This document shows, in pieces, positions 32,985-49,526 of a stretch of 64,000 bases of DNA. Source of the DNA: Salinibacterium sp. UTAS2018 (lineage in GTDB: Bacteria > Actinomycetota > Actinomycetes > Actinomycetales > Microbacteriaceae); assembly GCF_004118935.1 (NCBI RefSeq), contig NZ_CP035375.1:1178001-1242000 (forward strand), read 5' to 3'. Position 1 is the first letter of the stretch, and every line of letters begins with the position of its first letter. Under the pieces are notes generated by a model. It saw only the letters and a program-made list of their open reading frames with translations. It searched no databases and was not told the origin of the DNA. The position numbers and the translations under genes are program-made.

Positions 32985-33072
32985 GAGTTGCTCCCTAGCC
33001 GCGCTTCACGAAGTTCGCCGCTCTGTTCTTGAGAGTGCCAGCGTTGCACAGGTTCTGCCTTCTGTTGAGCAT

Positions 33073-34254: not shown

Positions 34255-34407
34255 AACGCCCTTACGCACCCTCGACGACAGAGGTTTCCTGCTGCTGCAC
34301 GAGCATCATGGGAGACCTTTCATGGAGGGTGCGCGCCGAATTGCGCTCCCCCGAGAATACCGTCTCATCGCTGCTGAACTGCCGCGCCGACGGGCACAGG
34401 GTAAGAC

Positions 34408-34429
34408 ACTGCGTGAACGCTGAGTGAAC
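34408..34429 (-). promoter_or_regulatory. PHO-box-like 11-bp direct repeat (box 1)
   Basis: On the minus strand GTTCACTCAGC (34429-34419) is followed directly by GTTCACGCAGT (34418-34408). Both units carry a perfect GTTCAC with an 11-bp period, as in Streptomyces PhoP sites. It lies in the 277-bp divergent gap, 154 bp before the GT4 start and about 50 bp before a possible -10 of the wbpA-type gene, so either could be the target. Confidence 0.6.
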
Positions 34430-34478
34430 GCGAATATGGACGGCGGGATAACCACCAGCATCTAGCACCATTGCGCTT

Positions 34479-34484
34479 TAGACT
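34479..34484 (+). promoter_or_regulatory. Possible -10 box for the UDP-sugar dehydrogenase gene
   Basis: TAGACT in the divergent gap gives a leader of about 40 nt with AAGGA about 10 nt before the GTG at 34532. No good -35 is present, which would fit a promoter needing an activator at the PHO-box-like repeat. Confidence 0.35.
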
Positions 34485-34531
34485 TGACCGCGCGTAAGCG
34501 TTGCGTCACACAACTCTAAGGACTCGGTTTC

Positions 34532-35821
34532 GTGAAAATTGCGGTAGTTGCCCTCGGTAAAATTGGCCTCCCTTTGGCCGTTCAATTCGCCTCGAAGGGC
34601 CACGAAGTCGTTGGCGTCGATATCAATGCCAGCTTCGTTGATCTCATCAATAAGGGCATCGAGCCGTTTCCGGGGGAAGCTCACCTGCAGGAACACCTGA
34701 GCGAACTTGTGCCGGCCGGCAAGCTGCGCGCAACCACCGACTACGCCGACGCTATCCCCGGCGCCGATGCCGTGGTACTCGTTGTGCCCCTCTTCGTTGA
34801 TAACGATGCCAACCCCGACTTCGGGTGGATGGATGTCGCGACCCGCTCGCTCGGCGAACACCTCACCCCCGGCACGCTGGTCTCCTACGAGACCACCCTG
34901 CCGGTGGGCACCACCCGTACACGCTGGAAGCCGCTGCTTGAAGAGGTCTCTGGCCTGACCGAGGGCAAAGACTTCCATCTGGTGTTCTCGCCCGAACGCG
35001 TGCTGACGGGTCGAGTTTTTGAGGACCTTCGCAAGTACCCGAAGCTCATCGGTGGGCTCTCCGCCGAAGGCGCCGCTCGCGCCACCGACTTCTACAACGC
35101 TGTTCTCGACTTTGACGACCGCCCCGACCTCGTGCGCCCCAACGGCGTCTGGGATCTCGGATCGGCTGAAGCCTCCGAGCTCGCCAAACTGGCCGAGACC
35201 ACCTACCGCGACGTCAACATCGGTCTCGCTAACCAGTTCGCTCGCTTTGCAGACAAAACCGGCATCGACATTTACCAGGTAATCGAGGCGACGAACTCGC
35301 AGCCGTTCAGCCATATCCACCAGCCGGGTATCGCGGTGGGTGGGCACTGCATTCCCGTCTACCCGCGCCTGTACCTGTGGAACGACCCCGACGCTACCGT
35401 CGTCCGTGCCGCTCGCGAGGCGAACGCAGGCATGCCCGAATATGCGGTCGGGATGCTCGAGGGCGCCCATGGAGACCTCACTGGCCAGAGCGTCGCGGTA
35501 CTGGGTGCCGCCTACCGCGGCGGTGTGAAAGAGACGGCGTTCTCGGGCGTATTCCCGACTGTCGCCGCTCTCGAAGCCCGTGGAGCCGTCGTAAGCGTGC
35601 AAGACCCGCTCTACACCGACGACGAACTTGGTGCACTCGGCTTTGCGCCGTTCCATTGGGGCGAGTCTGTCGATGCCGTCGTAGTGCAGGCCGACCACGC
35701 CGAGTACCGCACTCTGACCGAGGAACAGCTGCCCGGCATCCGCACCTTTATCGATGGTCGCCGCGTGAGTTCTGCCGCGCAGTGGCCGAATGCCACGTAT
35801 CGGGTCATCGGTACGGCCTAA
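34532..35821 (+). CDS. wbpA: UDP-N-acetyl-hexosamine 6-dehydrogenase (WbpA/WecC type)
   Basis: This 429-aa enzyme oxidises C6 of a UDP-N-acetylhexosamine in two NAD-dependent steps. The dinucleotide motif is VALGKIGLPLA near 6-16. The catalytic cysteine is C273 in GGHCIPVYP, the form seen in UDP-GlcNAc/ManNAc dehydrogenases rather than UDP-Glc enzymes. LAKLAETTYRDVNIGLANQ follows the family. With wbpB/E/D and wbpI it would start the UDP-ManNAc3NAcA route from UDP-GlcNAc; if paired with a WecB activity it would make UDP-ManNAcA. It is a single gene ended by a strong hairpin. Confidence 0.88.
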   Translation: MKIAVVALGKIGLPLAVQFASKGHEVVGVDINASFVDLINKGIEPFPGEAHLQEHLSELVPAGKLRATTDYADAIPGADAVVLVVPLFVDNDANPDFGWMDVATRSLGEHLTPGTLVSYETTLPVGTTRTRWKPLLEEVSGLTEGKDFHLVFSPERVLTGRVFEDLRKYPKLIGGLSAEGAARATDFYNAVLDFDDRPDLVRPNGVWDLGSAEASELAKLAETTYRDVNIGLANQFARFADKTGIDIYQVIEATNSQPFSHIHQPGIAVGGHCIPVYPRLYLWNDPDATVVRAAREANAGMPEYAVGMLEGAHGDLTGQSVAVLGAAYRGGVKETAFSGVFPTVAALEARGAVVSVQDPLYTDDELGALGFAPFHWGESVDAVVVQADHAEYRTLTEEQLPGIRTFIDGRRVSSAAQWPNATYRVIGTA

Positions 35822-35830
35822 GACGACACC

Positions 35831-35858
35831 AGCGCCGCCTGCTTTCGCGGGCGGCGCT
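35831..35858. terminator. Strong bidirectional hairpin terminator
   Basis: AGCGCCGCC, a 10-nt loop and GGCGGCGCT form a perfect 9-bp G+C-rich stem just after the dehydrogenase stop and 50 bp beyond the wzt stop on the other strand. There is no T-tract, which is common for actinobacterial terminators. It ends both convergent units. Confidence 0.75.
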
Positions 35859-35908
35859 GTGTACATGCTGCAACGAACAGCAGCGTGCTGCCGCGCTCAG
35901 CAGAAAAT

Positions 35909-36664
35909 CTAGCGAGTGGATGCCTTGAGCACGTCGACCGCTTCATTAACAGGGCCGTCGAAAATCTTCTTGCCCTTCTTCACTACGATGCCGCGGTCAC
36001 AGAGCTCGCGAACCGTCTTGGTGTCGTGGCTAACGACGACCATTGTCTTGCCTTCGTCAACGAGTTCGCGAATCTTCTTGCGGCACTTTTCGCGGAACGG
36101 AGCGTCACCGACGCCCAGAATCTCGTCGACAAGCAATACGTCGAGTTGCACGTGAATCGCAACCGAGAACGCAAGCCGCAAGAACATTCCTGAGGAGTAG
36201 TGCTTCACTTCGCTATCGATGAACTCTTCGATCTCAGAGAACGCAACGATGTTGTCGAACTGAGCGTCGATCTCTTTCTTGCTCATACCGAGAATGGCAG
36301 CGTTGAGGTACACGTTTTCTCGACCCGAAAGATCGGGATGGAATCCCGCCCCAACTTCGATAAGCCCGGCGACTCGACCCAGCGTGCGTACGCGGCCAGC
36401 GTCAGGCTCCAGCACTCCAGAGATGAGTTTAAGAAGCGTGGACTTTCCCGAGCCGTTGTAGCCGAGAATAGCGACGGACTCGCCAGGCTGCACGGTGAAG
36501 CTGATGTCTTTGAGCGCATCGAACGACGATGAGATCTTCTTTTTTTGCGTCCACGCGATGAACGCTTCTTTGAACGAGTGCGTGTGACGAAGCAGGAAAG
36601 TCTTCTTGACGCCGTCAACGATGATGCTGGGGCGATTGTCGGTCGTGGTGAGTGGCTGTGTCAT
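35909..36664 (-). CDS. wzt: Polysaccharide ABC exporter ATPase (Wzt/TagH/RfbE type)
   Basis: This 251-aa nucleotide-binding subunit has Walker A GYNGSGKST at 68-76, the RVAGLIEVGAGFHPDLSGRENV segment diagnostic of polysaccharide and teichoic acid exporters, the SSGM signature and VDEILGVGDAPFREKC around Walker B. It lacks the C-terminal carbohydrate-binding domain of long Wzt proteins, so recognition of a chain-end modification is unlikely. It overlaps wzm by one base. In mycobacteria the homologue Rv3781 exports the galactan, and the GlfT2 gene two positions upstream makes the same role likely here. Confidence 0.93.
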   Translation of the reverse strand: MTQPLTTTDNRPSIIVDGVKKTFLLRHTHSFKEAFIAWTQKKKISSSFDALKDISFTVQPGESVAILGYNGSGKSTLLKLISGVLEPDAGRVRTLGRVAGLIEVGAGFHPDLSGRENVYLNAAILGMSKKEIDAQFDNIVAFSEIEEFIDSEVKHYSSGMFLRLAFSVAIHVQLDVLLVDEILGVGDAPFREKCRKKIRELVDEGKTMVVVSHDTKTVRELCDRGIVVKKGKKIFDGPVNEAVDVLKASTR

Positions 36665-37587
36665 TAGAGATCCTGCGCAAATCGTCGTTCGAACTTGCGG
36701 AACACCATCTGACCGATCACGGTTACGATCACTGCCAGAAGCAGAGCGAGGAGTGAGTTGCGCACAAGGTCAGGCGGCGTCGGGAGCGCTCCACCGGTGG
36801 AGGAGAACCAGAATCCGTAGTGGAACAGTTCTACCGCAGACGTCAGCGGGTTGAGCATATAGATTTCGTAAAGCCAGCCCGGCAGTACAGCAGCGATGCT
36901 GTCGTAACCGTAAAGAACGGGCGACGCCCAGGTAGCAAAGATTCGGATGATCTCGACGAGGTTTTGAGCGTCACGGTACGACACGTTGACCGCGCCAAAA
37001 ATGAGGCCAAGACCGGTGGAGAACGTGATGACGATCAGAGCGCCCAGTAGCACTGCCGCGATCTCAAGGATGCCGGGTTGCCAACCCGTGAGAATGGTCG
37101 CGATCAAAAGAACGACGACCTGCGGCAAGAAGTGGATGAACGCGACGATCACGGCCGCGACGGGAAAGAGCTCCCGCGGCAAATAGATCTTCTTGACGAG
37201 CGCTTTATTGTCGACCACTGACGTCGTGGCATTAGTGAACGCCTCGTTGAAGAGGTTGATAACGATGATCCCGGCGAGCAAATACACCGCGAAGTTATCG
37301 ATGCCACGAGAGCGACCAAGCACAATGCCCATGACAAAGAAATAGATCATGTACTGGCTCAGCGGCTTAACGTACGACCAGCCCCAGCCGAACGCTGAGT
37401 TGCGGTACCGCGTCGAAACGCCCTTACGCACCAACAGGCGCAGCAGGTAGCTGCGCCGGAACACGTCGAGGAGCCCTCTGCCACGACCTGGAGTGGTGTA
37501 CCCCGTCAGGTCGATATCTCCGGTAGCGGACAAGCTGTTGCTCTCTTTCGCGGGTTTCCCTGGCACACGAGCGGGGGCTCGCGCCAT
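36664..37587 (-). CDS. wzm: Polysaccharide ABC exporter permease (Wzm/TagG/RfbD type)
   Basis: This is a 307-aa ABC-2 membrane subunit with a 50-residue cytoplasmic N-terminus, then about six membrane segments. The amphipathic VRKGVSTRYRNSAFGWGWSYVKPL interface helix region and LVKKIYLPRELFP are both typical of Wzm/TagG. It forms the channel with the ATPase encoded next. The gene lies 39 bp downstream of glfT2 and may also have a weak promoter of its own (TAGGAT at 37600-37605). It exports a complete lipid-linked polymer. Confidence 0.93.
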   Translation of the reverse strand: MARAPARVPGKPAKESNSLSATGDIDLTGYTTPGRGRGLLDVFRRSYLLRLLVRKGVSTRYRNSAFGWGWSYVKPLSQYMIYFFVMGIVLGRSRGIDNFAVYLLAGIIVINLFNEAFTNATTSVVDNKALVKKIYLPRELFPVAAVIVAFIHFLPQVVVLLIATILTGWQPGILEIAAVLLGALIVITFSTGLGLIFGAVNVSYRDAQNLVEIIRIFATWASPVLYGYDSIAAVLPGWLYEIYMLNPLTSAVELFHYGFWFSSTGGALPTPPDLVRNSLLALLLAVIVTVIGQMVFRKFERRFAQDL

Positions 37588-37599
37588 TACAACGTCACA

Positions 37600-37605
37600 A
37601 TCCTA
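37600..37605 (-). promoter_or_regulatory. Possible internal -10 box before wzm
   Basis: TAGGAT on the minus strand, 12 nt before the wzm ATG, in the 39-bp gap after glfT2. It would add a second start for the exporter genes. Confidence 0.3.
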
Positions 37606-37626
37606 GTGCGGCTTACGCTGCGGCAC

Positions 37627-39489
37627 TCAACGCTTCACTGTTTCCGTCCACGCCTCTACTGATGTGAGGGCTGCGGCGTGATCGCGGTACTGCTTTTGCA
37701 GAGTCTTCCACTCCCGCCCTAGTTGCCGATTGAGCGAGATGCTCTCTTTGAACAAACGGCGGAAGGTGGAGCGGTCGCGCCGGTACCACGAGGCTGCTTT
37801 GCCATCGGCGGTATCGATCAGCACGCTGTCGAGCAGCGGAACCCTCCACCAGGTTGCCTCACGCTTGGCGAGTTCAGCCTGCGGTTGGCGCCGAAGGTCG
37901 GCGGGAACGTCGGTAAACCAGTGGCGCAGTAGCGCTCGCGCAGTGAAGAGCCCTAATGCAGCAGCGCCCAAGGGCGGCGGCGCATCTTCGCCATAAGTCT
38001 GTCGACCGTCGCGGCTAGAAGGAATCGTTGCCGCGGGGTAATGCTGCATCTCGGCGAAATCGCTCGCCTGTGCTCGAAGCTGCTGCAACTTTGTCGGCAT
38101 GAGCTCGTGCAGCGCTTCTGGCCCGTTGAGCACGTCGCGGAACGCTTGATTTCTCAGAGTTGCGGGGTAGTACTGGAAGGAGATCAGGTGCTTGATGTCG
38201 ATCTTTCTGAACTCGCCCAGCAACCGCGAAGGCGATTGCGCCGTGGAGTGCAGCAACGCAACAACGAGTCGGTTTCGCGCATGAAAATAGGATTGCCAGT
38301 CGACGGTGTCATCTTTGTCGCCCCAGGAAATGTGCCAGAGCGCCGCACCGGGTAGTGACACGGTGGGAAAACCGGCTTCTTGCGCCCGCAATCCATACTC
38401 CGCGTCGTCCCACTTGATGAACACCGGCAGTGACAGCCCAATCTCGCGAACAACCGAGGTGGGGATGAGGCACATCCACCATCCGTTGTAGTCGCCATCC
38501 TGTCTGCTGTGCAGCCAGGGAGTTGCTCGCAGCGACTGGGCAGCGAAGTCGTGGCGTTCGTGGGCGCGATCAGCCGGCCCCCACATGAAGGTGTCTCGGT
38601 CGACGACTTCGGCGAAGGCGTGCAGCACCGACCGTTTGCCGAGATCGAGCATGTGGCCGCCCACGATAGTGGGGCTCACGCAGAATCGAGCGAACCACGC
38701 TGCGCGGAAGATGCTCTCAGGCTCGAGTTCGACGTCGTCATCGAGCAACATCACGAAAGAGGAATCGGGACTGTCGAGGGTTTCCATCATGCCGCGCGAG
38801 AATCCGCCCGATCCGCCCAAGTTCGGTTGGCGGATGATCTGCAGCTGGTCTGCCAAGGCCGCCGCCACTTCGGTGTATCCCTCTTGCCTCGCGACGTTCT
38901 TATTGCCCTGATCGATGACAAAGATCTTGTCGATTTCCGGAAGAATCTCCGGGCTACCCGCGAGCACTTCGAGAGTCGCGACGCAGTAGTCGGGCTTGTT
39001 GAATGTCGTGATGCCGAGCGACACCTTGCCCGTCGTGACAGGCGCTTCATCGACCGTCCAGTTCAGGCTCAGCAGCTGCAGTTCGCTGTCTGCTGCGAGG
39101 TCGATCCAATACCAGCCGCCCTCGACGAACGACGCCAGCGGCAGCCGAAAGTCAAGAGTCTCGCTGCCATCGACCGCGCTCTGATCGACCGTGTGGATTG
39201 CCCCGGTGTGATCCGAACGCATGACGGAGACGGTGCCCCGTCCACTTAGGGCCAGTCTGGCCGTGACATGCTGCACGGTTGTCCAGCGCTGCCAGTAGCT
39301 GGCAGGGAACGCATTGAAGTAGGTAGCGAGCGAGACGGCACTGCCGGCGCTGACCGTTACAGAGTGCCGACCGGTGATCGACACCGTGTCGCGATCTGCG
39401 GCATCCACATAGAGCGCGACTAATTCGTCAACGTGCTTCTCGGGAAAGACCGCATGTTGAATTGTTGTAGGCAGAGAACTCGAAGTCAT
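37627..39489 (-). CDS. glfT2: Galactofuranosyltransferase GlfT2-like (galactan polymerase)
   Basis: This 620-aa enzyme closely follows the layout of mycobacterial GlfT2 (about 637 aa). An N-terminal beta domain (1-150) is followed by a GT-A core with TTFNKPDYCVATL, the metal-binding DDD at 250-252, YNGWWMCLIP near 334-343, FIKWDDAEYG at 357-366 with the catalytic-base Asp, and WHISWGDKDDTVDWQSYFHARNRLV, then a C-terminal helical region. It would add alternating galactofuranose units from UDP-Galf. It leads the glfT2-wzm-wzt operon, coupling synthesis to export. A PHO-box-like repeat lies about 55-75 bp upstream. Confidence 0.92.
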   Translation of the reverse strand: MTSSSLPTTIQHAVFPEKHVDELVALYVDAADRDTVSITGRHSVTVSAGSAVSLATYFNAFPASYWQRWTTVQHVTARLALSGRGTVSVMRSDHTGAIHTVDQSAVDGSETLDFRLPLASFVEGGWYWIDLAADSELQLLSLNWTVDEAPVTTGKVSLGITTFNKPDYCVATLEVLAGSPEILPEIDKIFVIDQGNKNVARQEGYTEVAAALADQLQIIRQPNLGGSGGFSRGMMETLDSPDSSFVMLLDDDVELEPESIFRAAWFARFCVSPTIVGGHMLDLGKRSVLHAFAEVVDRDTFMWGPADRAHERHDFAAQSLRATPWLHSRQDGDYNGWWMCLIPTSVVREIGLSLPVFIKWDDAEYGLRAQEAGFPTVSLPGAALWHISWGDKDDTVDWQSYFHARNRLVVALLHSTAQSPSRLLGEFRKIDIKHLISFQYYPATLRNQAFRDVLNGPEALHELMPTKLQQLRAQASDFAEMQHYPAATIPSSRDGRQTYGEDAPPPLGAAALGLFTARALLRHWFTDVPADLRRQPQAELAKREATWWRVPLLDSVLIDTADGKAASWYRRDRSTFRRLFKESISLNRQLGREWKTLQKQYRDHAAALTSVEAWTETVKR

Positions 39490-39542
39490 TGTGCTTCTAG
39501 TGTGCCCTGCCCCGCCCTCATCAGCCCCATTTTCACGTCAGA

Positions 39543-39564
39543 AGAACACGAACTTTACGTGAAC
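39543..39564 (-). promoter_or_regulatory. PHO-box-like 11-bp direct repeat (box 2)
   Basis: Minus strand GTTCACGTAAA (39564-39554) then GTTCGTGTTCT (39553-39543). The first unit is perfect in GTTCAC and the second keeps GTTC. It is oriented toward glfT2-wzm-wzt, about 55 bp before the ATG. Confidence 0.5.
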
Positions 39565-39611
39565 TCTCGGCGCGAGACTCCCCCGTATCGCCAATGAACA
39601 CTACAGATGGA

Positions 39612-42600
39612 CTACGTGATCGAACCAGACCCCGCGACTCGTGGATCTCGGTCAAGACCTGCAACAGCGGGTGAGTCCTTCGCAAAATCCATGGGAACAA
39701 GCCTTTTTGAAGTTTTAGCGATAGCTGCGAAGAACTTGACCAATGATCGCGCCACTCTTATCAAGAGGTGTCTAAGGCTCTTTGGAACAAACTTGCGCGC
39801 GCCGTCACGAGCGGTTTTTAGGACGGGAGAAGTGCGGGCCAACGAGAGTTCTTTTGATCTCGTCATATCCTCGATCGCTTTCCCCTTGAGAATAGGGACG
39901 ACAGATTTTAAGGTGAAAGCGGGCGCAAATTCTATTTCCTCGCTGCCCAAACCTACAGCGTCTTTCAACGGCGCCAGATATTTTACGAACATCGGGTCTG
40001 TAGGACGCGTGCGGTAGTAGAAGAAACCGAATCGGAACAGATCTTGGTTTGCTAAGGGACGATCGAAGAAATCCTGACTGCCATATTTGCGTGCAAACTC
40101 GACGAGTTGCACATCAAGCGCGTCGTGCAAACGAACATCATTGTCCCGCGCTTTTGCGATTGGCACGATTCGATCCCCATCCTCGGCGTAGCCTTCAACG
40201 GTGCCAAAGGGAAGGTTGGCAAAAATCGCCTCGATCGCTAGAAAATTGAAATTGGCGGCCGTGAAGTTGTATCGAGTAGACAGCCCTGCGCTGGGGTTGA
40301 TGCTTCTCGCGTAGTACATTTTCGTCTCGATTTCTCGACCAAATGTGGCTGTGAGCAAGCGCGCAAGGCAGTCTTGCGTATAGCCTCGCCCCCAGTACTC
40401 GACGAAAGCGAAATTCTCGGTGGGGTCAATCTCTTGAGCAAGATAGCGAGTTGCCAACTCGCGATCCTCCGCACCGCGTGCAAGAAGATGGCGTCGAAAA
40501 CTCTCGGAAAGTTCCAGCGTGTTGCGGATCTCTGCCATGACTTCGGCGGTCAGCATCGACTCTTCGAGCATCTCGCTGAACTCAGGAAAGAAACTCAAGA
40601 ACGTTTCGCGATCCATGCGCGCAACATCGAACAATGCCTGCGGCGTAGTGACCCCGCTGAAGCTACCATGCACCCGGAATGTGTCATCATCCAACTCGTC
40701 AATTTGCGAAGCAAGACGCCAAGCAGTGCGTGAACCGTAGATATACCGAGTCTTTAGGCTCAGCCCTCGCGTTTCAATTAGGACGTCACAAATACGCTTC
40801 AGGTGATGCCCGTCGCGCGAGATGAAGTAAAGGCACTCGATCCCCCTCTCTAAGGCGTCCGAAACTAGCCAGTCGACGTAAGGCACCAGATAGGGAGCAA
40901 CATAGGAATACGCGAACCGCTCCACATCAGCGATGTTGGGGTCGGTCGCGACCTCGTGCATCATAGACGCGACCAAGTACATGTCGTAACTCTCGCCGAA
41001 TCGAGCGGCGGCGGCTTCGTACCCTGAAAGGCGCGGCGTTTCGCGAGCCCGCGTAGTGATACCGAGACGCTCGGCTACCTTGATATCGGCGTGCGGGTTG
41101 TCTCCGGTGTGAATCCACTCTTTGTAGTCATACTTCAGATCTTCGTACACTCGCAAGTAGAGGTTGCCAGTCGACTTCTGCACCTTCTGGTCGCTCGACA
41201 AATACAACGGGAGGCTTGCCAGCATCGGGTCTGCCTTCGCCAGCATTTCTGTTATTACGCCCTTGGGGAGATACATATCGCTAATCAAGACGACCTCCTG
41301 CCCATCGGCTAACAGCTGCCGTATCTCTTCGACCGTGGCTACGTCGGGAATACAGCTCTCGATTTCTGCTTCAACTTCCCAACCGCTCAGCACTTCTACG
41401 AGGTCAGGGCTCAGCCCATACAACCCTGCGATTCGCTCGTAAACGTCGGAAAGCTGAATTTCGAGTTCACCGGTTACGTGTCTCGCTTCCTGACGGCGAT
41501 AGTGGATTCGGGCTGACGTTTCAGCCTCCATACGAATCACAGGAAATCTGTTGGTGAGAGCTTGCGGGAATGGCAAGTCCGAGCTGCGCATTTTCTGGCG
41601 CAGGAGATGGAAAACGCTATTCGGCTGAACTCCACGACGGTGAATTACGGTGTCGAAGATATCGAACGAATAGAGGGTCGGAAGCTCAACGTTCCGCGGC
41701 ACAAAGCTTAGTGCAGCATCCACTATCCGCTCCAGAGAATCCGGGGTCGAATAGTCCCAGAACAGGCTGATGAGCTTTTGACGCTCATCCGCATCGACCA
41801 CAGGGTCTGTCTGAAGCGCTGCCAACAGATCTTCGAACGATGTAGCTTTCACCCCACACGACAGCTCGTCATAGGAGAAATCCGGTCGGATACTTTCTTC
41901 GAATCGCTCTGCATCGAAAACGTAGCGGATGACCCGCGTGACGCCAGCGGCGAGCATGTCGTAGAGGATCGATGAGTAGTCAACGATGGCTAAATCGATG
42001 TCCCCAAACATCTCATAGATGTCGTCTGCGTTATCCCAAAACAGCAAATTTTTGCACGAAGCGTAGTGAGATTTCATCCGAACGAAGTCAGGGTCCTCGG
42101 ACAAGCGGGGGTGCATTTTAACGATGAGAAGAGTGTTCTCTTTTTCCAGAACCTCGATCAATGCTCCCACGTCGGGAAAAGCTTCCCGCAGGAAGCCGAC
42201 GCTCTGCCCTGGCCGCCAAGTGGGGCTGTAAACCGCGATTCGAGCGTCCGGCGTTAAACCTTTGCGGTAGCGGACATTGTGGTCGTAGCTCGAAAAAGCC
42301 CCATGAGCGGTCCTGTAGACATTCTGAGGGTAGCCAGCGCGGATAACGTCGCTCTCTGGGAGACTTACGTGCTCCCGAAAATGCTCTTCCATAAGCGGCG
42401 AAGAGACGAGAAAGAGCTGCTGGTTACGAAAGTGCTGGTTGTTGCGAATGTACTTCATGGCGATGCGCCAGTTCGCGTACCCGACACCTTTCGCGCGCTC
42501 GATGGCCTTCACGCCTACACCGTGCCAAAGGTTCAGAAGCAACGCGTCCTCGAGGAGGGCTGGAATCCGCTCCTTCACCTGATCGACGACGAAGACCGAT

Positions 42601-42815
42601 GCCCGGTGTTGAGCGCGCTGGCCCGCGGCTGACTCGAAAGTCGACGCGCTGAACCCTAACTTACGTATTTTTCGGACTGTAGCCATCGAGTCACAAAGCC
42701 AATGCGCATCGATGTCTTGCCGGAACTTCGCGACATGAAGGAATAACCACTTCGGGTTCCCAGCGAACGTGTTCGCGGAGTTAAATACCCAAAGTGGGCG
42801 CGAATTTTCAGACAA
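39612..42815 (-). CDS. Glycerophosphotransferase-HAD fusion protein (PF04464 plus COG5610-like)
   Basis: This 1067-aa protein has three parts. Residues 1-375 match CDP-glycerol:polyol glycerophosphotransferases, with WHG (H98), SPTWR at 198-201, KMHPR at 233-237 and DYSSILYD at 279-286. Residues 380-590 are a HAD phosphatase-like domain with motif I DIFDT (D385, D388), motif II ISD at 511-513, a lysine pair near 544-547 and GDNPHAD at 571-577. Residues 600-1067 contain YFISRDGHHL (663-672) and FVEYWGRGYTQDCLARLL, a region seen after HAD domains in capsule loci. TTG start. It probably transfers an alditol phosphate; the HAD role is unknown. G+C is lower than in neighbours. Confidence 0.88.
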   Translation of the reverse strand: MSENSRPLWVFNSANTFAGNPKWLFLHVAKFRQDIDAHWLCDSMATVRKIRKLGFSASTFESAAGQRAQHRASVFVVDQVKERIPALLEDALLLNLWHGVGVKAIERAKGVGYANWRIAMKYIRNNQHFRNQQLFLVSSPLMEEHFREHVSLPESDVIRAGYPQNVYRTAHGAFSSYDHNVRYRKGLTPDARIAVYSPTWRPGQSVGFLREAFPDVGALIEVLEKENTLLIVKMHPRLSEDPDFVRMKSHYASCKNLLFWDNADDIYEMFGDIDLAIVDYSSILYDMLAAGVTRVIRYVFDAERFEESIRPDFSYDELSCGVKATSFEDLLAALQTDPVVDADERQKLISLFWDYSTPDSLERIVDAALSFVPRNVELPTLYSFDIFDTVIHRRGVQPNSVFHLLRQKMRSSDLPFPQALTNRFPVIRMEAETSARIHYRRQEARHVTGELEIQLSDVYERIAGLYGLSPDLVEVLSGWEVEAEIESCIPDVATVEEIRQLLADGQEVVLISDMYLPKGVITEMLAKADPMLASLPLYLSSDQKVQKSTGNLYLRVYEDLKYDYKEWIHTGDNPHADIKVAERLGITTRARETPRLSGYEAAAARFGESYDMYLVASMMHEVATDPNIADVERFAYSYVAPYLVPYVDWLVSDALERGIECLYFISRDGHHLKRICDVLIETRGLSLKTRYIYGSRTAWRLASQIDELDDDTFRVHGSFSGVTTPQALFDVARMDRETFLSFFPEFSEMLEESMLTAEVMAEIRNTLELSESFRRHLLARGAEDRELATRYLAQEIDPTENFAFVEYWGRGYTQDCLARLLTATFGREIETKMYYARSINPSAGLSTRYNFTAANFNFLAIEAIFANLPFGTVEGYAEDGDRIVPIAKARDNDVRLHDALDVQLVEFARKYGSQDFFDRPLANQDLFRFGFFYYRTRPTDPMFVKYLAPLKDAVGLGSEEIEFAPAFTLKSVVPILKGKAIEDMTRSKELSLARTSPVLKTARDGARKFVPKSLRHLLIRVARSLVKFFAAIAKTSKRLVPMDFAKDSPAVAGLDRDPRVAGSGSIT

Positions 42816-42834
42816 AAGATCTCGCTCGCAATCG

Positions 42835-42866
42835 GCTCGATCTGGGCGGTTACGGCCAGATCGAGC
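42835..42866. other. Perfect 11-bp inverted repeat upstream of the fusion gene
   Basis: GCTCGATCTGG (42835-42845), a 10-nt loop and CCAGATCGAGC (42856-42866), starting 20 bp before the TTG start of the fusion gene. It sits in a 278-bp divergent gap, so it is not an ordinary terminator. It may be an operator or a 5'-UTR structure. The rest of the gap holds only an imperfect G+C-rich inverted repeat near 42967-43005 and a TTGACT at about 43030. Confidence 0.6.
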
Positions 42867-43093
42867 GGTTGATTAGGTGACTGGTTTTCTGCTTATTGCA
42901 GTGCGACGCTCCCCGATTGGGCCGACCACTCTTGCAACTAAAACTCAGTTCCCTCATGATAACACCGACAACCCCGCCTCCAAATGAAAGGAGCCCGGCG
43001 GGTCGTGAGCGGTCGATGCACCTCCCCTATTGACTTACAAATCTCCGGTATTGTCGTGAGGATTCATACGTCGCGAAAGTTCGGGGAAATCTA

Positions 43094-44572
43094 GTGCGCA
43101 AAATTCTTATTCGAAGCGGAAAAAGCCCGAACGTCGCTTTGGGCCCGGAAGCGTCACTCGCCTCATCGCGCTTTGCGGTTTTCGGCACAAACGTCGGAAA
43201 TCTGGTTTTTAGTAACGCAGTTACGCGTGCGATCTCGGTACCCGGCGTGGAAGCCGTCTCAGACTCGCTTCTGTCAGAGCGGACGAATCCCACGGACGAG
43301 TACGTCGACCGAATCAATAATGAGTTCGAATCGTTTGTCGTTCCCCTCGCGAATGCCTTCCGCCCTGAGTTCGTTGGACCGTTGCGGCGACTCACCCGCC
43401 TCATCGAGCGGTTGGATATTCCCGTGACCGTAGTTGGCGCAGGGTCGCAACTCGATGTGACAGGCAACCCTTTCGGGGAGATCGAAACTGTCAACGACGC
43501 GAGTCGTGATTTCGTCAAGGCCGTGCTCGACAAGTCCGCGTCGATTGGCGTGCGCGGTGACATGACGAAAAAATACCTTACCGGGATCGGCCTGCCTGCC
43601 GATTCCATCGACGTCATTGGCTGCCCGTCTCTCTATGACGCTGGGCCAAACTTGCATATAAGCAAGAAGGTAGAGCGGATCTCTGCCGAATCGCTGCTCG
43701 CATTCAACACCCCGATGGCAATTGCGGGAGCTGACGAATTCGTTCGCCGGCATGCGGAACTGTACCCGAACCTTGTATTCGTTCCTCAGAGCAACAAAGA
43801 ACTTGAACAAATGGTTTGGGGTGCTGCTGACAACGTTCGCGGCGCGATCCCGACCCATCCCGATCACCCTCTTTACCGAGAAGACAGAGTTCGGTTCTTT
43901 TTAGACCCGTCTACTTGGGCGGCCTACCTCGGCGAAAGAGATTTCACCTTCGGATCTCGTATCCACGGAAACGTGGTCTCACTTTTGGGCGGCACTCCAG
44001 CTGTAGTCTTCGCCTGGGACTCGAGGACACTCGAACTCGCGCAGCATCACAAAATTCCACACCTCACGATGCCGGAATTACCTCAAGATCTTGACATCCG
44101 GCGCGTATACGACGATGTTGATTTTGCAGATTTCAATGCCGCCGTACCTGAGAATTTTCGAAATTACGTGGATTTTTTGAACCGAAACGGGATCGAAAAC
44201 ATTCACCAAGACGGTAAGAGCAATCCCGAGTACGATGCAAAAATCTCGAAGGTGAGTTTTCCGGCGCCGGTAGGAACTGCCTACGGCGAGGATGGCGTCA
44301 CTGATCTTCTCTCCCGCCTGCGGTGGTTGCGCCAAGGGCCCGGTAGCGAGGCGGGCCGGCGTTTTGGAGGTTATGTGCCTCCGATTGACCCCACGAAAAT
44401 GCTTCCGGCGAAGGAACCTACCGACCTTCCTGCACAAGTCAAGGGTGTGCAACTTGCGATAGCACGCGTGGAGGACCGGATGGCTTATCTTGCTGAGCCG
44501 TTCGAGCGCCGCCTGTTAGCGGGAATTAAGACACGTTTCCGCTCTCTCCTACGTCGAGTCCGTCGGCGCTAG
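43094..44572 (+). CDS. Polysaccharide pyruvyltransferase family protein
   Basis: This 492-aa protein contains the PF04230 pattern: FGTNVGNLVFSNAV near the N-terminus, SIGVRGDMTKKYLTGIG, VIGCPSLY, and DFTFGSRIHGNVVSLLGGTPAVVFAWDSRTLELAQHHKIP in the C-terminal half. These enzymes add a pyruvate ketal to a sugar or, in some relatives, transfer other groups. The last 110 residues, including a basic LRRVRRR tail, are unlike the family core. GTG start. Mixed G+C, around 40% in the 3' part, suggests recent acquisition with the neighbouring fusion gene. Pyruvylation would add negative charge to the wall polymer. Confidence 0.88.
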   Translation: MRKILIRSGKSPNVALGPEASLASSRFAVFGTNVGNLVFSNAVTRAISVPGVEAVSDSLLSERTNPTDEYVDRINNEFESFVVPLANAFRPEFVGPLRRLTRLIERLDIPVTVVGAGSQLDVTGNPFGEIETVNDASRDFVKAVLDKSASIGVRGDMTKKYLTGIGLPADSIDVIGCPSLYDAGPNLHISKKVERISAESLLAFNTPMAIAGADEFVRRHAELYPNLVFVPQSNKELEQMVWGAADNVRGAIPTHPDHPLYREDRVRFFLDPSTWAAYLGERDFTFGSRIHGNVVSLLGGTPAVVFAWDSRTLELAQHHKIPHLTMPELPQDLDIRRVYDDVDFADFNAAVPENFRNYVDFLNRNGIENIHQDGKSNPEYDAKISKVSFPAPVGTAYGEDGVTDLLSRLRWLRQGPGSEAGRRFGGYVPPIDPTKMLPAKEPTDLPAQVKGVQLAIARVEDRMAYLAEPFERRLLAGIKTRFRSLLRRVRRR

Positions 44573-44576
44573 ATAT

Positions 44577-44623
44577 CGATAGTTCCTAGCGTCCAACACC
44601 ATGTGTGACGCTAGGAACTATCG
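44577..44623. terminator. Very strong bidirectional hairpin, 17-bp perfect stem
   Basis: CGATAGTTCCTAGCGTC (44577-44593) pairs perfectly with 44607-44623; the 13-nt loop contains a further ACAC/GTGT pairing. It begins 4 bp after the pyruvyltransferase stop and ends 36 bp before the stop of the opposite gene, so it can end both transcripts. Confidence 0.85.
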
Positions 44624-44658
44624 AGAGCAACGCGAAATGGCGACAAGCCGTTAATCCG

Positions 44659-46056
44659 CTATACGCTCCCGTGACGCCGCACGTTGATTACTTGGCCAGT
44701 GAGGTCGCCCAGAAGCACATCGATTGAAGCGTTTGCGACCTGCATGGGCTCGAGCAGCGAACCCTCTGGTTCTTCGCCGAACGCATCAAGGCGCATTTGT
44801 GTTTTCGTTCGTTCCGGGTTGATGCAGTTGACCCGTACTCCGTAGTCGGTCCACTCCTCTGACAGCGACTGAGTCAAGTTGACTGTCGCTGCCTTTGTCG
44901 CGGAATACATGCCGTAATTGGCACGACCTCGGGTGTAAGAGCTCGAAGTGAAGAACAGGAGCTGTCCGCTGGTCTCACGTAGGTATTTCAGGGACTCCTG
45001 CGCGATGATCACCGGGCCAAGCAGGTTGACGTCAAGGATATTGCGAACCTGTTCCGGAGAGAATTGCTCGAGGCTGCCCAACTCGAGAACACCAGCGGTG
45101 TTCACCACGTAGTCGATGCGGCCGGATTCAGCCTGCGCTGCCGCGAGAGCTGCGGCTACCGATTCGCGATCTTCTACTGCCGTGCCGGTCGTGGAGCGAC
45201 TCAAGGACACAACATTGACGCCGAAGCTCTCCGCCGCCTCGACGATTCCACGCCCAATACCGGCGCTACCGCCAAACACGACCATGGTCTTGCCTGACAA
45301 CTGCTCTTCGCGCTCAGCAGCATCCAAAGAACTGTGATCAGCGGAACGCAGCTGAAACAACTTATCGGCAATGAAGATATCGATGCCGGCCGTGACCTTC
45401 ATGTTCTCTTCTTCACCGAGCACGACCGCGATGGGCACCTTTGGCGAATACTTCAACACCACAGAGCAGTCATCGCTGGCAGCAAACTCCGGATCGAGAA
45501 CCGCACGGTCATAGGCCTCGCGGATCGTCGACAGCAGAAAGCCCTGAGGAGTCTGGCCTCGGCGAAGGCGGTCGCGCGGCGGAATCTTACGAATCTTACG
45601 ACCGCTCCCGGCAACCTTAATGATCGTGTCTGCAGACGGAATAGCTACGTCGACTGCTTTATAGGTGTCAAGCGCCTCCACACAATCCTTCAAGATGCGG
45701 TGACTCACGAACGGGCGCACCGCATCGTGGAAGAGCACCTTCACCTCGTCGTCGCCGAGGGCCTCGATCGCTTTCCGCGACGTGTCGTTGCGAGTAGCGC
45801 CGCCGGCCAGAACACGAGTCAGCTTAGGAAACTGGCCCGACTCACGGATAGTTTCGACCGCTTCGAGGTGATCGGGTTCCATCATGATGATGATCTCGTC
45901 GATCTCGGGCGAGCTGTGCACGGCCTCGAGAGTGTGTTGAAGGATTGTCTTTCCCGCGATGCGAGCCAGTTGTTTAGGCATTCCCAAACCTGCCCGCACA
46001 CCGATGCCACCGGCCAAAATAACCATGACCGTACGCAATTCTGATTCAGTCTTCAC
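44659..46056 (-). CDS. Bifunctional cytidylyltransferase/SDR (Acs1/Bcs1-like, CDP-ribitol synthesis)
   Basis: This 465-aa fusion has an IspD/TarI-type cytidylyltransferase at 1-235 (LAGGIGVRAG at 14-23, PKQ at 27-29, VTAGIDIFIADKL near 221-233) joined to a short-chain dehydrogenase at 250-465 (GGSAGIG at 262-268, NTAG at 319-322, YSATK at 384-388). The same order occurs in Haemophilus Acs1/Bcs1, which reduces ribulose-5-phosphate and makes CDP-ribitol. The GTG at 46056 has GGAGG 7 nt upstream. It is third in the operon after the split cytidylyltransferase and SDR, separated by a 69-bp gap with a hairpin. The product could be another CDP-alditol. Confidence 0.9.
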   Translation of the reverse strand: MKTESELRTVMVILAGGIGVRAGLGMPKQLARIAGKTILQHTLEAVHSSPEIDEIIIMMEPDHLEAVETIRESGQFPKLTRVLAGGATRNDTSRKAIEALGDDEVKVLFHDAVRPFVSHRILKDCVEALDTYKAVDVAIPSADTIIKVAGSGRKIRKIPPRDRLRRGQTPQGFLLSTIREAYDRAVLDPEFAASDDCSVVLKYSPKVPIAVVLGEEENMKVTAGIDIFIADKLFQLRSADHSSLDAAEREEQLSGKTMVVFGGSAGIGRGIVEAAESFGVNVVSLSRSTTGTAVEDRESVAAALAAAQAESGRIDYVVNTAGVLELGSLEQFSPEQVRNILDVNLLGPVIIAQESLKYLRETSGQLLFFTSSSYTRGRANYGMYSATKAATVNLTQSLSEEWTDYGVRVNCINPERTKTQMRLDAFGEEPEGSLLEPMQVANASIDVLLGDLTGQVINVRRHGSV

Positions 46057-46081
46057 AACACACCCTCCACCCGTGCACGCC

Positions 46082-46109
46082 ACAAACCCTGACGGCAGTC
46101 AGGGTTTGT
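46082..46109. other. 12-bp perfect hairpin inside the CDP-alditol operon
   Basis: ACAAACCCTGAC (46082-46093), loop GGCA, GTCAGGGTTTGT (46098-46109), in the 69-bp gap between the SDR stop and the fusion gene start. It may act as a partial terminator or an RNA-stability element that sets different levels of the two modules. Confidence 0.65.
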
Positions 46110-46125
46110 ACAACATCTCAAACCT

Positions 46126-46833
46126 TTACTGGCGGACTACCAAGTTCGCGCTGTCGAGGTATTGCCCGACACCCGAAACCATCGTTCGAACAATCGAAGC
46201 CACGTGTTCGGGCTGCATGATCGTCGATGGATCTTCATCCGGAGCGAGCGTCTTGCGCAAATCTGTGGCACAACGACCAGGAGACAACGACACAACGCGG
46301 GTTCCATAGATGGCAAGCTCCTCGCGCAGCACGTCACTCATGTTGATGACCGCCGCCTTGGACGCCGAATAGGTTAGCCACCCGGCACGGCCAGTGATGC
46401 CCGCCGTCGACGCGATGTTTACAATCGCATCGAACTTGTTGCCGTGATGAAGGAGTTCTTGAATAACCGTGAATGGTGCGTAGACGTTCACCATGATCGT
46501 CTTCTCGAAGTCTTCGAACTCGACCTGCTGGAACGCAACCGGGTTGGTATAGCCCGCGTTATTGACGAGAATGTCGACCTTCGGGTGCGCCGCGTTGATC
46601 TCTGCCATCGCTGCGATAATCTGCTGGCGATCCCCCAAGTCCACGTTGTACGTGTGGATTCTTACGCCACGGTCGTTTAACGTCTCGAGCCACTTTACGT
46701 TTTCAACAAAGTGATCGCTCTCGCGAGCCAACATAATGATGTCTGAGACCGTGGGCTCGTTCGTCAAGAACTCGCGCGCCGTTGCAAGGCCAATGCCCTT
46801 AGACGCTCCCGTGATCAGAACCGTCTTATTCAT
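46126..46833 (-). CDS. SDR oxidoreductase paired with the cytidylyltransferase
   Basis: This 235-aa classical SDR has GASKGIG at 9-15, NNAG at 91-94, catalytic Ser in IASTAG near 142, and YSASK at 155-159. By position it is the reductase partner of the preceding cytidylyltransferase, making the alditol phosphate before or after activation, as TarJ or Abp/Mnp-type enzymes do, although it belongs to the SDR rather than the TarJ family. The ATG at 46833 overlaps the cytidylyltransferase 3' end by 8 nt. The substrate is not determined. Confidence 0.88.
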   Translation of the reverse strand: MNKTVLITGASKGIGLATAREFLTNEPTVSDIIMLARESDHFVENVKWLETLNDRGVRIHTYNVDLGDRQQIIAAMAEINAAHPKVDILVNNAGYTNPVAFQQVEFEDFEKTIMVNVYAPFTVIQELLHHGNKFDAIVNIASTAGITGRAGWLTYSASKAAVINMSDVLREELAIYGTRVVSLSPGRCATDLRKTLAPDEDPSTIMQPEHVASIVRTMVSGVGQYLDSANLVVRQ

Positions 46834-47512
46834 CAGCATCCTGCCTACTCCGCAACAACACATTCGCAATCTGGACATCGACGGGCCCTGTGACCTTGAG
46901 ATTGCTCTCATCGCCATCGATGAAGTAAACGTCATGACCGGCCGCCGCAACGAGCGTTGCGTCTTCCGTGTATTCAGCCGCACGCTCTACAGCGAAGTCG
47001 TGGCTGGCCTTCAAGTCTGCGCGCAAGAACTTTTGCGGCAACTGCACGTTGCGCAGGCCGTCGCGCTCGAGGTAACCCGTGACTCGCTTGGTCACCGGGT
47101 CAACCGGCGCCACCGTGAATGAGATCGGCGACATAAAGCTGCAGTTGTCGTACGGCGCTGCGATGAGCTCGGCGAAATCAGCGACTGTCACCATGGGGCG
47201 AGCGGACTCGTGAACGAGAACACGATCGTTGGTGCAGGCATCAACCATGCGGGCGACCGAGTTATGGCGAGAGGAACCAGCTTCTACATAGGTCACCGTC
47301 GTGGTGATCGCGTAGTCGCGCACGATGGCTTTGACCTCGTCGAGCCAGCCACTGGGGTAGTTGAGAACGACCTGGTCGATCTCTGGCACCTCGTTGGCCG
47401 CAACCAACGAATAGACCAAGACAGGCATACCGTGAACCTTAAGGAACTGCTTGGGCGAATCGGCCCCAAGCCGCGCTCCAACACCTCCATTAAGGAGAAT
47501 GAGACTGTACAT
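46826..47512 (-). CDS. IspD/TarI-type cytidylyltransferase
   Basis: This 228-aa protein has the CTP-binding LNGGVGARLGADSPKQF (8-23) and the closing NLKVTGPVDVQIAN. LLNGG replaces the usual LAAGG. It would link CMP to an alditol phosphate (ribitol-, arabinitol- or mannitol-phosphate) rather than serve the MEP isoprenoid pathway, because it overlaps an SDR gene and sits in a teichoic-type cluster. GAGGAG lies 9 nt before the ATG. It leads the three-gene operon and has a PHO-box-like repeat 59-80 bp upstream. An isoprenoid IspD role cannot be fully excluded. Confidence 0.88.
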   Translation of the reverse strand: MYSLILLNGGVGARLGADSPKQFLKVHGMPVLVYSLVAANEVPEIDQVVLNYPSGWLDEVKAIVRDYAITTTVTYVEAGSSRHNSVARMVDACTNDRVLVHESARPMVTVADFAELIAAPYDNCSFMSPISFTVAPVDPVTKRVTGYLERDGLRNVQLPQKFLRADLKASHDFAVERAAEYTEDATLVAAAGHDVYFIDGDESNLKVTGPVDVQIANVLLRSRQDADE

Positions 47513-47570
47513 ACGGAATAACTCCTCTAACCCCACGACAGCACCCGCGACGGCGAGCCTGCGGATGAGT

Positions 47571-47592
47571 CTAACGTGAACGGACGGTGAAC
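47571..47592 (-). promoter_or_regulatory. PHO-box-like 11-bp direct repeat (box 3)
   Basis: Minus strand GTTCACCGTCC (47592-47582) directly followed by GTTCACGTTAG (47581-47571). Both units have perfect GTTCAC; the first keeps the seventh base C as in GTTCACC. A TAGACT -10 candidate (47573-47568) overlaps its end, so the box would cover the -35 and spacer, an activator position. The target is the CDP-alditol operon. Confidence 0.65.
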
Positions 47593-47624
47593 AGACGGAA
47601 AAAGCGAAGCAAACGCGAGCATCT

Positions 47625-49331
47625 TTACACGTATTTGCCGGCCTCGTTAAGGAACACGTCGACGTAGCCCTCGGGCGCAAAATCGCCTAAGTAGTACTTC
47701 TTCCAATTGCGACGTTCGTCGAGCAACGAGTCATTTACAAGCAACTCATCGAGCACTTGTTCGATGTTGGAGCCATCGCGCGCAAGCAAGTAGGAAGCCT
47801 TAGCTAAAGGGAACTCCTCGACGAAGTCCTCTGAGGCAGCGATGGCCGCGATAGCGAATGGCTTCTCGGAGTAAAGGAAGTCAGGCACGATACTCGAGAC
47901 ATCTGAGATCAGAGCGTCGGAGATATTGAAACATTCCGTCGTCGATAGGTCTTTTTCGGCAGCGGGGCCCCATAAATGTTCGCGTCCTGACGCGGCTCGA
48001 TCGGCAGCAAGCAGTTCCACGATGCGTTCTGCTTCCGCCGCGTGCGACGCGTTGACCGCTGTGTACGGGTGGGAGCGGAACACCACGCGAGCTCCGCGTT
48101 GAAGAAGAGCTTGAACTACCGCGACACCGATCGGCAACGACGAATAGTTCGAGTCGGCAAAATAGCCAGCCCAAGTGGGGGCGTACATCACGGTCTTGTG
48201 CCCGCTGCGATCGGTGGCCTCACCCGCAACGGCGATGTTCTCAACCTGCGGCCGCCCCACGATCGAGAACCACCCCGGAGCCGTCTCGATACCGGCACGG
48301 GCAAAGCGATCGATAGCCGCTTGGCCCGCCACAAAGTTCTTATCGAACATGCGGAGGACCGGGTTGAAGCTTGGAGCTTTATCGCTCTCACCGTGAAGGA
48401 GCTGAATGTGAGTGAGGTGGGTGTAGCGCGCCATGTGCACGTTACGTGCATTTGAATTGACATAGAACACAGCTTTGAGAGTGGATGCGATCACGCCATC
48501 CATATCCGCGACGACGCTTCGTAGCAGCACTGGCGCCGTCGTGAGCTTGGAAGCCGCGATGAACGACGCTCGATTGCGGACCACGACGATGAATGGCTTA
48601 TTCAACCGCTCAAGGTAGGGCAGCCACATCGCGAGTTGGTAGTCGGTCTTCGCCGGCGCGTCCCAGTGCACCGCGAACGTCGGGGCGACTGCTGCGAGAG
48701 CAGAAGGCAATTGGCGTTCCGCGATTCGGCGGCTTCGCACGCGAAGAATGCCATCCAAGAGAGAAATGCTCGTCGGCACGGCAGCGACGAGGGTGACCGC
48801 AATTCCGATCCACGGGTTCACTCCGGACCATGCCAATGCCGCGAGAATGAACATCGCGATGACGTTCACCAGAAAGATGAAGTTCACTCTAAAGAGCGGG
48901 TAGTTGCGTACAGAGACGCCAGGAAGATTTACACCATAGGGGATGGCGCCGGCGGCTACTTTGGCGCAATTGACCTCGGTACCGATCAAGAAACTCAAGA
49001 TGCCTACGGATACCCACACGAGTAATTCATCACTCGTGCGCACATAGGCGTAGCCGATAGCAATCAGGATCAACACACGAGACAGCACGAAGCGCCCTAC
49101 GTATTGGCGCCATCCTTTGCCTTTGCGCAGCGCGGGCAATCCGAAACCTACGATAACTGCAAAGGCGATGCCGGCGGCCGCGAGCGCCAACCACAGCTCG
49201 ATACCCAGCAGCAGCGACACAACGCTGAAGGAAGCGAGCGCATTCGCGACGAGTTCGAGACCATTCGCCTGCTCAAATCGCTTCGCAAATGATCCTCGAT
49301 CATTCGAAGACGAGCGGGAGAATAGTTTCAT
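47625..49331 (-). CDS. Membrane CDP-glycerol/ribitol phosphotransferase (PF04464) with N-terminal membrane domain
   Basis: This 568-aa protein has five to six hydrophobic segments in residues 28-200 and a C-terminal GT-B glycerophosphotransferase domain (about 215-560) with LLHGESDKAPSFNPVLRMFDKNFVAGQAAIDRF, MYAPTWAGY, RSHPYTA and DVSSIVPDFLYSEKPFAI. The HG and DVSS motifs are the catalytic and donor-site hallmarks of TagF/TarL-type enzymes. It likely transfers glycerol- or ribitol-phosphate from the CDP donor to a growing chain at the membrane. The added membrane domain is unlike TagF, which is peripheral. It lies 112 bp upstream of the CDP-alditol operon on the same strand. Confidence 0.9.
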   Translation of the reverse strand: MKLFSRSSSNDRGSFAKRFEQANGLELVANALASFSVVSLLLGIELWLALAAAGIAFAVIVGFGLPALRKGKGWRQYVGRFVLSRVLILIAIGYAYVRTSDELLVWVSVGILSFLIGTEVNCAKVAAGAIPYGVNLPGVSVRNYPLFRVNFIFLVNVIAMFILAALAWSGVNPWIGIAVTLVAAVPTSISLLDGILRVRSRRIAERQLPSALAAVAPTFAVHWDAPAKTDYQLAMWLPYLERLNKPFIVVVRNRASFIAASKLTTAPVLLRSVVADMDGVIASTLKAVFYVNSNARNVHMARYTHLTHIQLLHGESDKAPSFNPVLRMFDKNFVAGQAAIDRFARAGIETAPGWFSIVGRPQVENIAVAGEATDRSGHKTVMYAPTWAGYFADSNYSSLPIGVAVVQALLQRGARVVFRSHPYTAVNASHAAEAERIVELLAADRAASGREHLWGPAAEKDLSTTECFNISDALISDVSSIVPDFLYSEKPFAIAAIAASEDFVEEFPLAKASYLLARDGSNIEQVLDELLVNDSLLDERRNWKKYYLGDFAPEGYVDVFLNEAGKYV

Positions 49332-49504
49332 TTCTTAGATTTTCTTAGTGATGTGGTGTGAACCAGAGAGACTGCTGCACAAAGAATGCAGGCGAATAGC
49401 ACCTTAACATGTTGCGCTCTGAGTGGCCCTGAATGGCTCACATCCGCTCCCCGCCCGCTATTGCTGCTGAGTGGTGGGCATCCGATACGCTAAAGGTACC
49501 GAAC

Positions 49505-49526
49505 GTTCACTCAACGTTCCCCTTTT
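49505..49526 (+). promoter_or_regulatory. PHO-box-like 11-bp direct repeat (box 4)
   Basis: Plus strand GTTCACTCAAC (49505-49515) then GTTCCCCTTTT (49516-49526). The first unit is perfect; the second keeps GTTC. It lies 30-51 bp before the LicD-type gene and faces it, in the 224-bp divergent gap. Confidence 0.5.

Follow-up and report, generated by a model that had tools for sequence, protein, structure and literature searches.

In a window of 64,000 nucleotides, the whole stretch of DNA that was analysed (bases 1178001-1242000 of the single-contig genome of Salinibacterium sp. UTAS2018, 2,995,446 bases), four tandem repeats of GTTCAC-type units, here called boxes 1 to 4, lie among genes for wall polymers. 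Boxes 1 and 3, and possibly box 4, are probably PHO boxes of the RegX3/PhoP type, by which the regulator that serves pstS would also control the glycosyltransferase/flippase operon adjoining box 1, together with the genes that supply CDP-alditol to an exchangeable polymer cassette. Phosphate control of these wall-polymer genes is likely; we infer binding by the regulator and the phosphate response with its sign. PHO boxes are described in the cited passages of one review as direct repeats of 11-nt GTTCACC units (PMC4415409); two such units at that period are found in boxes 1 and 3, nearly so in box 4, and not in box 2.

The probable PHO box of the genus and the window repeats

Boxes 1 and 3, and more weakly box 4, are supported as PHO boxes by a corresponding box at pstS throughout the genus and by a predicted RegX3 orthologue encoded beside phoU. 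A pstS match is present in 27/27 genomes of the genus, UTAS2018 counted among them, and the best match in each carries a GTTHAC-N5-GTTYAC box 110-147 bp upstream, frequently with a third weak unit. The sequence-only reading had proposed looking for the repeat at the pst genes and phoU, and pstS2 of UTAS2018 does carry an exact box (Table 1). The phoU gene (1355256-1355876) adjoins genes for a kinase and a response regulator; the closest solved relative of the latter is RegX3 (PDB 2oqr), with 350 bits vs 199 for MtrA, and the protein (L069:5246-5926) is the predicted RegX3 orthologue. On sequence grounds, the window-type box is the PHO box of the genus. At locus L024 (4959-7295), two tandem pstS copies follow ppk and a NUDIX/histidine-phosphatase gene, with a clear PHO box at the second copy only; a weaker box-like site precedes ppk (L024:1701-1718).

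The exact pattern GTTYAC-N5-GTTYAC gave 61 matches in the 27 genomes vs 5 for the reversed pattern used as control. Sorted by neighbouring gene, 21 sites lie upstream of pstS, five at lamin-tail domain (LTD) genes, one at ppk and one at a phosphonate-like transporter, and two are the window boxes; of the rest, 10 are at ArsR-type stop codons, four belong to an arginase-family gene and 17 are of other kinds, 13 of these inside open frames. Pfam was run on 2/10 of the ArsR-type and 1/4 of the arginase-family cases; among the lamin-tail proteins, L041 scored under the Pfam cut-off and L209 was placed by its N-terminus.

The four window repeats were found where the sequence-only reading had placed them, all intergenic and with an exact 11-bp period, and its division into two boxes with perfect units (1 and 3) and two with a weaker second unit (4 and 2) was borne out. 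In 200 dinucleotide shuffles of the window the mean number of exact pairs was 0.02, and 0/200 shuffles reached the two observed. With at most one mismatch there are four window pairs, one of them intragenic, a number reached by 0.5% of shuffles, and with at most two mismatches 17 pairs vs a mean of 9.9, reached by 4%. The GTGAAC form taken from the sequence-only reading, at up to two mismatches, gave 8 window pairs vs a mean of 5.8, which was not significant (reached by 26/100 shuffles), and pairs with two and three mismatches at period 11 (13 and 96) fell within the counts seen at the remaining periods between 6 and 22. Over the whole genome the GTGAAC form occurs exactly 3 times vs 0 for the reversed control (21 vs 7 with at most one mismatch), and the GTTYAC form occurs exactly six times, namely as boxes 1 and 3 and at the four genome sites at the foot of Table 1 that have an exact pair. 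At one mismatch or fewer there are 29 GTTYAC sites vs 14 in the control, so about half or more of the single-mismatch sites, such as box 4, would be background. The designation of all four repeats as PHO-box-like therefore holds for boxes 1 and 3, which are two of the six exact pairs of the genome, and weakly for box 4, but not for box 2. The latter has a matrix p of about 2e-3 per position, which is background level (the position-weight matrix is over-weighted, with an effective number of sequences of 1.9, and its p-values serve as a ranking only), and the GlfT2 orthologues of three relatives (G011-G013) have no good counterpart of it (0/3; best upstream sites, 3 mismatches); it was rejected as a PHO box.

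Table 1. Boxes, neighbouring genes and further box-like sites. Positions are those of the window, except for the last five rows (genome positions); operons were called from gene spacing and strand.
Feature	Position	Strand	Remarks
Box 1	34412-34429 (exact pair 34413-34429)	-	GTTCACT-cagc-GTTCACG; both units perfect
Box 2	39547-39564	-	GTTCACG-taaa-GTTCGTG; units GTTCAC+GTTCGT
Box 3	47575-47592 (exact pair 47576-47592)	-	GTTCACC-gtcc-GTTCACG; both units perfect
Box 4	49505-49522	+	GTTCACT-caac-GTTCCCC; one mismatch; units GTTCAC+GTTCCC
Putative box-1 target operon	30100-34269	-	from spacing and strand
Second glycosyltransferase	30100-31194	-	likely box-1 operon
MsbA/PglK-like ABC exporter	31191-32984	-	likely box-1 operon
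GT4-type glycosyltransferase	33073-34269	-	likely first gene of box-1 operon
UDP-sugar dehydrogenase	34532-35821	+	divergent from box 1; conserved in relatives with and without the box
ABC ATPase	35909-36664	-	downstream of box 2
ABC-2 permease	36664-37587	-	downstream of box 2
GlfT2-like galactofuranosyltransferase	37627-39489	-	downstream of box 2
1067-aa protein	39612-42815	-	Glyphos_transf (TagF/TarF-type) domain
IspD-SDR fusion	44659-46083	-	follows SDR reductase gene
SDR reductase	46126-46830	-	follows IspD/TarI-like gene
IspD/TarI-like cytidylyltransferase	46826-47513	-	likely box-3 target; box 3 is 63 bp before ATG
TarF-like Glyphos_transf protein	47625-49331	-	upstream of box 3
LicD-family protein	49556-51166	+	methyltransferase-like stretch at the C-terminus; likely target of box 4, provided that box is real
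Site at LTD gene	473435		75 bp before gene of secreted protein with four LTD domains and a phytase-like stretch (L068:3527-6562)
Site at pstS2	1364086		GTTTACC-tccc-GTTTACC; 95 bp before start codon
Site at ArsR-phosphatase fusion	2772737-2772753 (L003:1501-1517)		overlaps stop codon of the fusion gene; adjoins second low-molecular-weight phosphatase/arsenate-reductase gene
Site at ABC transporter	2782161		99 bp before binding-protein gene
Export-locus site	2941113-2941129 (L221:5667-5683)		ATTTACC-tact-GTTAACC; degenerate

The putative box-1 operon and the exchangeable cassette

Box 1 is located between the glycosyltransferase and UDP-sugar dehydrogenase genes, 158 bp before the likely minus-strand ATG (34254). 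A close orthologue of the box-1 glycosyltransferase (83%) occurs in just one genome of the genus, G013, and there the counterpart of the box reads GTTCACC-cagc-GTTAACC, likewise 103 bp from the dehydrogenase, with just 75/143 identical positions in the sequence to its left. G011 and G012 have neither box 1 nor such a glycosyltransferase at that place, but in both the dehydrogenase is preserved along with the sequence just upstream of it. Since G013 has both box and glycosyltransferase and the other two have neither, box 1 probably belongs with the minus-strand glycosyltransferase-exporter operon; a role as promoter element of the dehydrogenase is disfavoured, that gene being kept without the box in G011 (98%) and G012 (96%).

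G011-G013 have largely different genes in place of those between about 35.9 and 51.2 kb, with the two flanking genes 96-98% identical at the protein level, so that the region can be regarded as an exchangeable cassette. Its G+C content is about 0.54-0.59 vs 0.59-0.63 outside, and a GlfT2-like gene (about 60%) is retained in all three relatives. At its junctions, short pieces of the C-terminal ends of the flanking dehydrogenase and of the ABC ATPase are left over, which suggests recombination there. Within the cassette, the IspD/TarI-like, SDR and IspD-SDR genes would provide a CDP-alditol supply. Box 3, at their head, is accompanied by two more weak units upstream, in 11-bp register, up to 47614; box 4, a possible PHO box, lies 34 bp before the ATG of the LicD-family gene. 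Relatives of the LicD, TarF-like and IspD-SDR proteins, 47-69% identical, occur in Homoserinimonas sp. OAct 916, Cryobacterium psychrotolerans and C. tepidiphilum.

The proposed mechanism is that, upon phosphate limitation, the kinase/PhoU system would phosphorylate RegX3, which would then bind tandem 11-bp units of GTTCACC type. Besides serving pstS, RegX3 would act via box 1 on the glycosyltransferase/flippase operon, via box 3 on the genes that supply the cassette with CDP-alditol, and perhaps via box 4 on LicD.

Sites outside the window

A box-like site absent from the sequence-only reading lies at a conserved phosphopolymer-export locus. In G005 an exact site (C1:17485) has a nucleotidyltransferase/ABC-exporter set on one side and a divergent ABC transporter on the other, with Glyphos_transf, CDP-alcohol phosphotransferase and GT2 genes nearby. 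UTAS2018 shares the locus (L221; 11 genes found, 80-97% identity) and has a degenerate site at the aligned place (Table 1); the aligned sites read ATTCGCC-ttct-GTTAACC in G004 and GTTCGCT-tgca-GTTCACC in G009. In these four genomes, which are not a sample, the second unit is kept in 4/4 and the first is imperfect in 3/4, and the neighbouring stretch GACACACC is more strongly conserved than the first unit. The units point toward the ABC transporter and not toward the exporter operon, an orientation that makes the target of the site uncertain.

Among the other exact sites of UTAS2018, the large secreted LTD/phytase-like protein is a candidate phosphate-scavenging enzyme. The ABC transporter at 2782161 gave as top NCBIfam names 2-aminoethylphosphonate for the binding protein and ATPase and sulfate for the permease, each under the curated cut-off; its likeness to phosphonate importers is distant and its substrate uncertain. 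The matches at ArsR-type stop codons may reflect a conserved C-terminus instead of an operator. Sites resembling GTTTACTGTGAGTTCACGTTTACTG precede an arginase-family gene in four genomes of the genus (L208:2499-2515; L200, L201, L205), and are probably read by a different regulator.

Direction of control and alternative readings

A TA-containing minus-10-like motif stands at offset 31 after the box in 26 pstS promoters (that of G024 was left out of the set) and in the transporter promoter at 2782161; it is missing at boxes 1-4, at the three LTD-gene promoters tested and at two second pstS copies. Since these LTD promoters and second pstS copies lack it as well, the spacing between box and minus-10 is no safe guide to activation. 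Box 3 is directly followed by TTAGACT, whose minus-10-like hexamer TAGACT abuts the box, and box 1 is soon followed by TTACCCT. This placement would fit overlap with the core promoter and hence repression, but also the close geometry of PhoB-like activation, and does not decide between the two. Repression at box 3, suggested by the abutting TAGACT and the absence of pstS-type spacing, would be a guess of little weight.

Several results weigh against RegX3 control of the window genes. The expectation that the pst genes and phoU would carry boxes, which held at pstS2, failed at the first pstS copy of UTAS2018, where there is no good box, and between phoU and the kinase gene, where there is no strong one (best matrix score 8.7). 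An exact match alone is no proof of a PHO box, because the ArsR-type (10), arginase-family (4) and in-frame (13) sites among the 61 match exactly too, and outside UTAS2018 the exact site of G005 is the only one in the 26 genomes that adjoins genes like those of the window. Box 1 is conserved in one relative only (G013), and at 16 less closely related homologous loci (41-49%) no box with at most one mismatch lies within 350 bp. Boxes 1, 3 and 4 lack the pstS-type spacing. The proximity of boxes 1 and 3 was set aside as evidence, the probability that any two of six sites would fall within 13.2 kb being estimated at about 0.13. Finally, in the three relatives of other genera no box 3 or 4 was found in ten upstream regions, where the best sites had at least three mismatches (the PHO boxes of those genera being unchecked); this absence counts against an old, conserved control by boxes 3 and 4, and a local gain is possible.

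A rather unlikely reading takes boxes 3 and 4 (and 2) as matches by chance and box 1 as the sole conserved operator. It draws on the orthologous genes without box in those three relatives and on the background share of single-mismatch sites, but chance would give the window only 0.02 exact pairs, box 3 sits between genes a short way ahead of a start codon and is continued by weak units in register, and the unchecked PHO box of the relatives limits what their lack of it can say. Other OmpR-type regulators use similar 11-bp repeats, and one of them might read the sites; the four exact arginase-family sites (Pfam on 1/4), with their distinct extended sequence, argue that some exact matches are no PHO boxes. 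In every genome of the genus, however, it is the box of the pstS promoter that comes closest, and such a regulator is quite improbable for the window boxes. A reciprocal switch of the Bacillus type, in which RegX3 at low phosphate would repress a phosphate-rich polymer through boxes 3 and 4 and activate a putative phosphate-poor glycan through box 1, appears doubtful. It would suit the position of box 3 at CDP-alditol genes and the lack of a phosphotransferase domain among the box-1 glycosyltransferase/flippase genes, and the cited part of one paper states that Streptomyces PhoP activates genes for teichuronic acid and lowers those for teichoic acid (PMC6988585, with PMC7244524 in like terms). 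Box 1 has no pstS-type promoter spacing, however, and the export-locus site, oriented toward the ABC transporter, is a poor fit to so simple a scheme. The window has CDP-alditol, Glyphos_transf and LicD genes, and no polymer free of phosphate that could serve as the replacement was identified.

The proposed RegX3 control through PHO boxes has close parallels. The relevant passages on the Streptomyces coelicolor PhoP regulon describe the same unit sequence and 11-nt period, wall-polymer targets, and boxes in front of pstS and ppk (PMC4415409, PMC7866108, PMC6988585), and a teichoic cluster regulated by phosphate is described as well (PMC7866108); here, in contrast, the first pstS unit may also be GTTTACC or GTTAACC, and the predicted targets lie in an exchangeable cassette. 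The regulator beside phoU recalls mycobacterial SenX3-RegX3, its closest relative being RegX3. With the Bacillus subtilis PhoP teichoic/teichuronic switch, as outlined in part of PMC4415409, the window shares boxes near phosphate-containing wall-polymer genes, but lacks an identified phosphate-free counterpart. A similar inference on phosphate control appears in the cited part of a Planobispora study (PMC8269224), and for Pontimonas, of the Microbacteriaceae, the corresponding part of the genome paper mentions a Pst/PhoR-PhoB/PhoU system and states that teichoic acid seems to be the usual polymer of the family (PMC6106888). A literature search on the PHO box in Microbacteriaceae found no paper. 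Phosphate control of wall polymers by PHO boxes is thus already known as a kind, and the lineage and the cassette setting appear new.

It is tentatively conceivable that RegX3 has captured the exchangeable glycopolymer cassette, swapped-in genes gaining boxes 3 and 4 locally and the core export locus and the glycosyltransferase/flippase operon keeping theirs; if so, the type of surface polymer would be tuned to phosphate strain by strain. The analysis provides a testable PHO-box definition for one genus of Microbacteriaceae, and suggests that strain-variable polymer loci of other actinobacteria, too, come under the phosphate control of wall phosphopolymers that is known from Streptomyces and Bacillus.

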